Assembly: GCA_012840085.1 (NCBI GenBank) | Contig: DUMB01000054.1 | Span: 1-64,000 of the forward strand | Direction of reading: 5' to 3' | Source of the DNA: Clostridiaceae bacterium | Lineage (GTDB): Bacteria; Bacillota; Clostridia; Acetivibrionales; DUMB01 | DNA length: 64,000 nucleotides | Shown: positions 28,021 through 61,373 of the stretch, piece by piece | Layout of the letters: each line of letters begins with the position of its first letter | Numbering within the stretch: the first letter of the stretch is position 1 | Translations under genes and position numbers: made by a program | The notes under the pieces: model-generated | Told to the model about the DNA's origin: nothing | The model's input: the letters and a program-made list of their open reading frames with translations, nothing else | Database searches by the model: none

Positions 28021-28238
28021 ATTATTGAGTAAATGGATTTATGTGAAAAATACATGGAATAATGTGAAGCTGTCAATTCAATTATAAGAAACATTCTTTT
28101 ATAAACAAAAAGCATTTTTTTCTATACTTTTAAAGTATATAGAGAAAATTAAAAACACAGTGAAACGTGAATTCATCACTTATGTAACCCATATAACCTA
28201 AAAAAATCGGCATTTTTCACCTTTTTTTTAGTTGCATA

Positions 28239-28267
28239 TTGCAAATATATGTAAACGGTAGTATAAT
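28239..28267 (+). promoter_or_regulatory. Sigma-A-type promoter for candidate small RNA
   Basis: TTGCAA (28239-28244) and TATAAT (28262-28267) have a 17-base spacer. The same hexamers and spacing occur upstream of guaA. Confidence 0.65.
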
Positions 28268-28273
28268 TATTCT

Positions 28274-28358
28274 AGATTAGTATTAACTAATAACTCCCCT
28301 AGATCCCGTGCTGATATCTCCTCCAAAGAAAGGCACGGGTACTTTTTACCCTTTTTTA
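28274..28358 (+). ncRNA. Candidate small RNA with C-rich anti-Shine-Dalgarno loop
   Basis: A promoter is followed within about 85 bases by a short hairpin (ATTAGT/ACTAAT), a single-stranded CTCCCCT, and a terminator-like stem CCCGTGC (28305-28311) with GCACGGG (28333-28339), then T-runs. The 21-base loop carries CTCCTCC (28318-28324), complementary to the ribosome binding site core. No start codon or frame is evident. It could be a trans-acting sRNA or an orphan attenuator. Confidence 0.45.
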
Positions 28359-28641
28359 AGCAAATATTTGAACATTTTCCTCCAATTATACCCAGCAAAA
28401 TATCTGCTTATATCTACTAAAGCATTTACTTAAAAAATACAATTTAATACAATATGTACTTTTTCGGTTGCTGTGATATAATTTTTTTATAGAACGCTCC
28501 AAGCAGCAATACTGTCATCATAAAAGTATTGTGAATTAAATGATATCATAACATAAAATTGTTTGCTTTACAGTATTAATTTTATTTTAGTTCAGTGTCT
28601 GTGTGTAATATTACTAATGGTAGGGTTTATGGGAGGTAAAA

Positions 28642-61064: not shown

Positions 61065-61366
61065 AAAAAATCCCTCGTCCAGTAAGGGACGAAGGAATAT
61101 TTCGCGGTACCACCCTGATTGGCACATAAATTGTGCCCTCTCTGCCAGTACAAAATGGCTATGCCATCAGATACTGCTCCTCTGTAACGTGAGGTTACGT
61201 CTTCCTCTAATATGAAGTTGAAAAATCAAGGCACCTATCCCTTATCTTCAACTTCAGTTCTCAAGGAGAAACTCCAGGGCTGCCTTCCATACCTTCTTTC
61301 TCCGGACTTGCACCATACTCCGGCTCGCTTTGGAAAGTACAGTATGTACTCTTCCCTTTCATCGCT
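61065..61366 (-). promoter_or_regulatory. T-box leader controlling Lrp/aminotransferase operon
   Basis: On the minus strand the T-box sequence GGGTGGTACCGCG (61115-61103) is followed by a terminator, TCCTTCGTCC with GGACGAGGGA and TTTTTT (61096-61065). Stem I features are AGTA (loop E), AGCGAGC and GGTGCAAG (about 61301-61358). The specifier region is GGAAGGCAGCCCTGGAG (61288-61272), where GCA (Ala) is the most plausible codon but GGC (Gly) is possible. Uncharged tRNA binding would favour readthrough. Confidence 0.92.
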
Positions 61367-61373
61367 GCATTCT

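Follow-up and report, generated by a model that had tools for sequence, protein, structure and literature searches.

Anatomy of the predicted small-RNA gene

Does the stretch at positions 28239 to 28358 of the analyzed DNA encode a small regulatory RNA, and which of its parts would matter for function? An earlier note on this DNA had read it as a candidate small RNA with a transcript of about 85 nt. In what follows, the window is the whole 64,000-nucleotide stretch of clostridial DNA that was analyzed. The elements on which the note had built, namely a TTGCAA-17-TATAAT promoter, C-rich single strands and a CUCCUCC loop on a terminator stem, were all found where it had placed them (Table 1). 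The reading as a free-standing gene with its own promoter and terminator was supported as well, with a slightly shorter predicted transcript of 74-84 nt.

Table 1. Coordinates of the features at the small-RNA locus (window positions).
Feature	Position	Strand	Basis or remark
Predicted small-RNA gene	28274..28357	+	~74-84 nt; start ~28274 predicted from promoter spacing, predicted end 28347-28357; basis: promoter spacing, terminator, homology
Sigma-A-type promoter	28239..28267	+	10/12 consensus positions
-35 box TTGCAA	28239-28244	+	17-nt spacer to the -10 box
-10 box TATAAT	28262-28267	+	Sequence
Perfect inverted repeat TTGCA-TAT-TGCAA over the -35 box	28232..28244	.	Read from sequence
AU-rich 5' hairpin AUUAGU-AUUA-ACUAAU at transcript start	28276..28291	+	Folding
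Single-stranded C-rich seed AACUCCCCUA	28292..28301	+	Homolog comparison, folding
Terminator hairpin, 8-bp stem, arms CCCGUGCU (28305-28312) and GGCACGGG (28332-28339)	28305..28339	+	Sequence, folding
CUCCUCC in terminator loop, possible second pairing site	28318..28324	+	Not conserved as such
U5 tract of first terminator	28343..28347	+	Sequence
Second terminator-like hairpin GGGUA/UACCC with U6 tail, overlapping the first	28337..28357	+	Sequence, terminator scan

The seed of the window copy is predicted to be unpaired with a probability of 0.91, and the loop of the terminator hairpin, which contains the CUCCUCC motif, comprises 19 nt. Between positions 28292 and 28347, the seed CUCCCCUA is followed immediately by a terminator stem with a CCCG/CGGG base and then by a U tract, which is the layout of the RNA family described below. 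The inverted repeat over the -35 box is possibly an operator or repressor site; none was noticed in the homologs, and it would be special to the window copy. Translation of the transcript into a small peptide was dismissed, since there is no ATG and the sole GTG frame crosses the terminator and lacks a Shine-Dalgarno (SD) sequence.

Homologs and conserved elements

Taken singly, the promoter, the terminator, the CTCCTCC motif and the fold are unimpressive, each being near chance in AT-rich DNA. The window contains 13 promoter-like sites (8.8 expected), one terminator-like site (0.4 expected) and nine copies of CTCCTCC (5 expected), and the folding z-score of the locus is -2.3. It is homology that places the locus far above chance. 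A leave-out covariance model (R3), built from 23 copies from other genomes with the window copy excluded, was run against the 4.09-Mb source genome and returned the window locus as top match (33.5 bits, E 6e-5); the runner-up, at 22 bits, was a terminator without the seed. Recovery as the best match in the genome indicates that the window copy is a true but diverged, single-copy member of the family. Under a second model (R2, 31 sequences) it scored 49.8 bits, compared with 50-77 bits for the better copies. Two weak matches in the source genome were rejected or set aside: one has a similar terminator and no seed (C2:56046), the other has CTCCCCTAAATCC beside an inverted repeat and no terminator stem (C76:74117). 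The inverted repeat at the second site (L151, ~2518-2545) is AT-rich and lies 5' of CTCCCCTAAATCC. The best match in G001, the only other sampled genome of family f1, lay inside an ORF and was not accepted as a convincing copy.

A model made from the window sequence alone already picked up clear relatives elsewhere in the order, in families other than the window's own. A pattern combining seed, stem base and U tract was scanned against 85,000 species genomes and matched 26 stretches. Apart from one GC-rich chance match, all of these came from Bacillota records that were either clostridial or unclassified, with Acetivibrio mesophilus, A. straminisolvens, A. alkalicellulosi and Herbivorax among them. 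A GC-rich Anaerotruncus locus (L062) that matched the strict pattern was judged to be due to chance. With R2, at E up to about 0.005, each of the 14 f13 genomes (Acetivibrio/Herbivorax) had between one and nine copies, and there were further copies in families f5, f17, f7, f2 and f10. The order was represented by 58 genomes, and 24 of these, spread over 7 families and including the window's own, had clear members. Elsewhere in the class, about 370 genomes yielded no convincing member, and neither did 398 genomes sampled across the phylum. BLAST of the locus DNA against relatives, phages and plasmids recovered only the locus itself, and the pattern was absent from the viral contigs scanned.

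Rfam 15 gave nothing relevant at the locus, either at the gathering threshold or at E up to 10, where only unrelated sub-threshold matches appeared; for the homologs, there was no match in three subfamilies, nor at the gathering score for ten loci. Absence of the family from Rfam implies that automatic annotation misses it. No published description was found in the literature searched, and single copies may have been listed before in subscription papers or in supplements with predicted clostridial sRNAs. Judged by sequence comparison, there is a true sRNA gene at the locus. It belongs, as a diverged and non-syntenic member, to a multicopy family that is unregistered and confined to the order.

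The earlier note had put its emphasis on the CUCCUCC loop, which the homologs did not bear out. Across 73 copies, the near-invariant part was the stretch 5' of the terminator stem, UACUCCCCUA. It was identical in 67 of the 73 and differed by one or two bases in the remaining six (AACUCCCCUA in two of them). Part of this constancy stems from the search itself, as the pattern and the models both use the seed. The copies at the rpoD locus were located via rpoD protein synteny, and they carry CUCCCCUA in every f13 locus read and also in G017, G010 and G002, which belong to three other families. The seed was predicted to be unpaired with a mean probability of 0.77 over the 73 homologs.

Below the loop, the stem usually reads CCCG/CGGG. 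Subfamilies with other stems retain the pairing (CCCAUGUAUUC/GAAUGCAUGGG, ACCGUGCAUUC, CUCGUAU, CCUUGG), and in a 23-sequence alignment both sides had changed in 6 of 11 pairs (17 such cells), a level reached in none of 500 shuffles. The 5' hairpin keeps its position in many homologs while its sequence changes (GUAA/UUAC, GAGC/GCUC, AGUAUA/UAUACU). The loop was C-rich in 43 of the 73 copies, typically AUUCUCCCUUCUC, and mostly AU-rich in the rpoD-locus subfamily. This variability suggests that CUCCUCC is the local version of a secondary, optional element. The covariance-model search of related genomes that had been proposed as a check returned homologs with preserved stem pairing but a variable loop. 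A CC close behind the U tract (often AUCC, ACCC or GCCC) was present in 26 of 71 distinct homologs, compared with 16% of T tracts in general, a count that is not independent because the copies are related. By pairing with this CC, the run of G in the first stem could give rise to another terminator in tandem.

Neighbours and promoter classes

Several subfamilies have settings of their own. Subfamily A, with 14 loci, lies 48-304 nt upstream of the gene for CCA tRNA nucleotidyltransferase, subfamily B points toward the 3' end of the sigma-A gene rpoD, and another subfamily is placed between hpf (hibernation factor) and a P-II gene. Most copies face convergent or unrelated genes. The window copy is not syntenic with the rpoD, CCA nucleotidyltransferase or hpf/P-II subfamilies, synteny not being required for membership; rpoD of its genome is located elsewhere and has no sRNA copy. 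It is flanked by a large secreted gene of GH39/lectin/CBM35 type and, 284 nt downstream on the same strand, by a GNAT gene (28642), with a GT21-like glycosyltransferase gene further on. The earlier note had pointed to the adjacent glycan locus; a link to it found no backing among the homologs. None of them shares the neighbourhood, and none of the 13 GNAT orthologs examined in relatives has the sRNA upstream.

The copies fall into two promoter classes. About 50, including the window copy, have sigma-A-like or unclear promoters. A further 21 match TAAAGT-N15/16-CGATAT at 11 or 12 of 12 positions, which is the signature of sigma-D, the flagellar sigma factor. The same pattern stands upstream of a flagellin gene in the window's genome. 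In G045, which we take to be Acetivibrio thermocellus ATCC 27405 and which carries three copies of the sRNA, it precedes a flagellin gene, a candidate chemoreceptor-like gene and the sRNA copy at 2,704,047. The other two copies of G045 are at 1,071,093 (rpoD) and 1,695,629 (CCA gene). The flagellin ORFs were named from our own reading of the protein sequences.

Seven good copies were found in G033 (L035/L061, L051, L052, L053, L142, L048 and L097). Several have identical cores at unrelated places and a common upstream AAAATAGAAC element, suggesting recent duplication. Two members from other genomes, L141 (G050) and L161 (G039), have two or three tandem seeds, UUUACUCCCC...UUUACUCCCCUAAUUACUCCCC, located at and immediately upstream of 2531-2593 and 2548-2615, respectively, and sigma-D-type promoters.

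Putative mode of action and competing explanations

The proposal that the C-rich strands can pair with ribosome-binding sites (RBSs) held up in computed energies. They were computed for 578 genes, on stretches that cover roughly one fifth of the window's genome. At a cut-off of -10 kcal/mol or better, the seed region paired with 128 RBS windows vs 33 windows in coding sequence; for the loop the numbers were 338 vs 135. Same-composition shuffles paired on average with 75 (seed) and 184 (loop) RBS windows, and 6 of 60 and 1 of 60, respectively, reached the observed numbers. Such modelled, RBS-biased pairing shows an ability rather than targets, and any anti-SD-like sequence would do likewise. 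Among the strongest predicted partners were the gene for a putative dipeptidase (L296; TAGGGGAGCAAAG), a neighbouring pair of sugar-ABC permease genes (L308:7658 and 8686) and several response regulators. A CpaF-like ATPase gene (468063) is a candidate target in G035. A 10-mer search for the full complement of the seed, TAGGGGAGTA, found no enrichment outside the sRNA genes themselves, TAGGGGAG-N-ATG sites were not clearly commoner than a reversed control, and no target was confirmed as conserved. All seven carrier genomes tested have a gene for Hfq, whereas none was found in G001, a genome without the sRNA; the parallel is only suggestive.

An exposed C-rich single-stranded motif, as predicted for the window copy, is the hallmark of C-rich anti-SD sRNAs, to which this family would add a new member among the Firmicutes. 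The closest likeness in layout is to LhrC of Listeria, whose three UCCC motifs pair with the ribosome-binding region of lapB (PMC4132741). LhrC1-5 of L. monocytogenes are multicopy RNAs with a 5' hairpin, a single-stranded CUCCC and a terminator with a C-rich loop (PMC4132741), and the present family has a 5' hairpin, an exposed CUCCCC and a terminator with a C-rich loop. However, no homology to LhrC was seen, as judged from Rfam and the 398 phylum genomes rather than from direct alignment. The LhrC copies are also near identical and all LisRK-dependent, whereas the present family diverges except in the seed and has two sigma classes. FsrA of Bacillus subtilis and IsrR of Staphylococcus, which are Fur-controlled in their own hosts, likewise have exposed C-rich regions that pair with G-rich RBSs (PMC9410917), but no homology to the window family was seen. 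RoxS/RsaE represent the same C-rich anti-SD class of low-GC Gram-positives (PMC4132741) but differ in sequence and layout, the window locus and its homologs being without an Rfam match. By analogy, the mechanism is most likely that of an LhrC/FsrA-type C-rich sRNA, not homologous as far as the searches show.

We infer that the locus is probably a gene for a trans-acting sRNA. Its sigma-A promoter would give rise to an RNA of 74-84 nt, the end of which is probably protected by the 5' AU hairpin. The exposed seed, UACUCCCCUA or AACUCCCCUA, assisted in some copies by the loop, would pair with G-rich RBSs such as UAGGGGAG in several mRNAs and block their translation, probably with the help of Hfq.

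We weighed this reading against four others. The repeated seed UACUCCCC might instead act as a sponge or decoy for a protein or another RNA, as CsrB-type RNAs do for CsrA. Its presence in up to nine genes of one genome, its repetition within single RNAs (L141, L161) and the lack of enrichment of its full complement elsewhere in the genomes would fit such a role. We nevertheless regard it as unlikely, since the seed is single-stranded and C-rich, in contrast to the GGA loops bound by CsrA, and in known Firmicute sRNAs the UCCC motifs have SD sequences as their pairing partners (PMC4132741; PMC9410917). Slightly less likely is a cis-acting leader or attenuator, in which the transcript would be the 5' end of the GNAT mRNA and termination at the hairpin would be conditional. 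The position and strand of the GNAT gene would allow this, and a cis-acting role is conceivable for subfamily A with its place ahead of the CCA tRNA nucleotidyltransferase gene. Against it stand the GNAT orthologs without the element, the majority of copies that face convergent or unrelated genes, the second terminator behind the first with no anti-terminator partner seen, and a separate promoter-like site at 28425-28453.

The two remaining alternatives question the function of the locus itself. The family might be real and the window copy a decaying, non-functional relic, in keeping with its single, diverged and non-syntenic state, its modest score in the leave-out model and the lack of a convincing copy in G001, the sole other sampled f1 member. 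With promoter, seed, stem and both terminators intact, we consider decay improbable. That the locus makes no regulatory RNA and is a mere terminator, or a promoter and a hairpin that stand together by chance in an AT-rich gap, accords with promoter and terminator scans that alone are near chance; it is hard to reconcile with the leave-out match, the near-invariant seed and the compensatory stem changes across many genomes, and we hold it to be highly improbable for the window copy. Applied to the family as a whole, the chance reading is largely refuted.

For the trans-acting sRNA, the two promoter classes suggest that in multi-copy genomes, where sigma-A would drive some siblings and sigma-D others, a common set of targets would receive input from different signals. 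Tentatively, and with clearly less confidence than for the sRNA gene itself, we propose that sibling sRNAs with one fixed 10-nt seed, fired by sigma-A or sigma-D, could jointly restrain translation in cellulolytic clostridia, A. thermocellus among them, which would tie growth, motility and exoprotein or sugar-uptake genes together via a single pairing code. No sRNA regulon for cellulosome-forming clostridia was found described in the literature searched, and a family with one to nine copies per genome, a near-fixed seed and two sigma inputs offers a testable entry to their regulation.

One other structured RNA was noted in the window. A T-box leader (RF00230, 125.9 bits) at 61082-61371 on the minus strand was the sole Rfam match within it.
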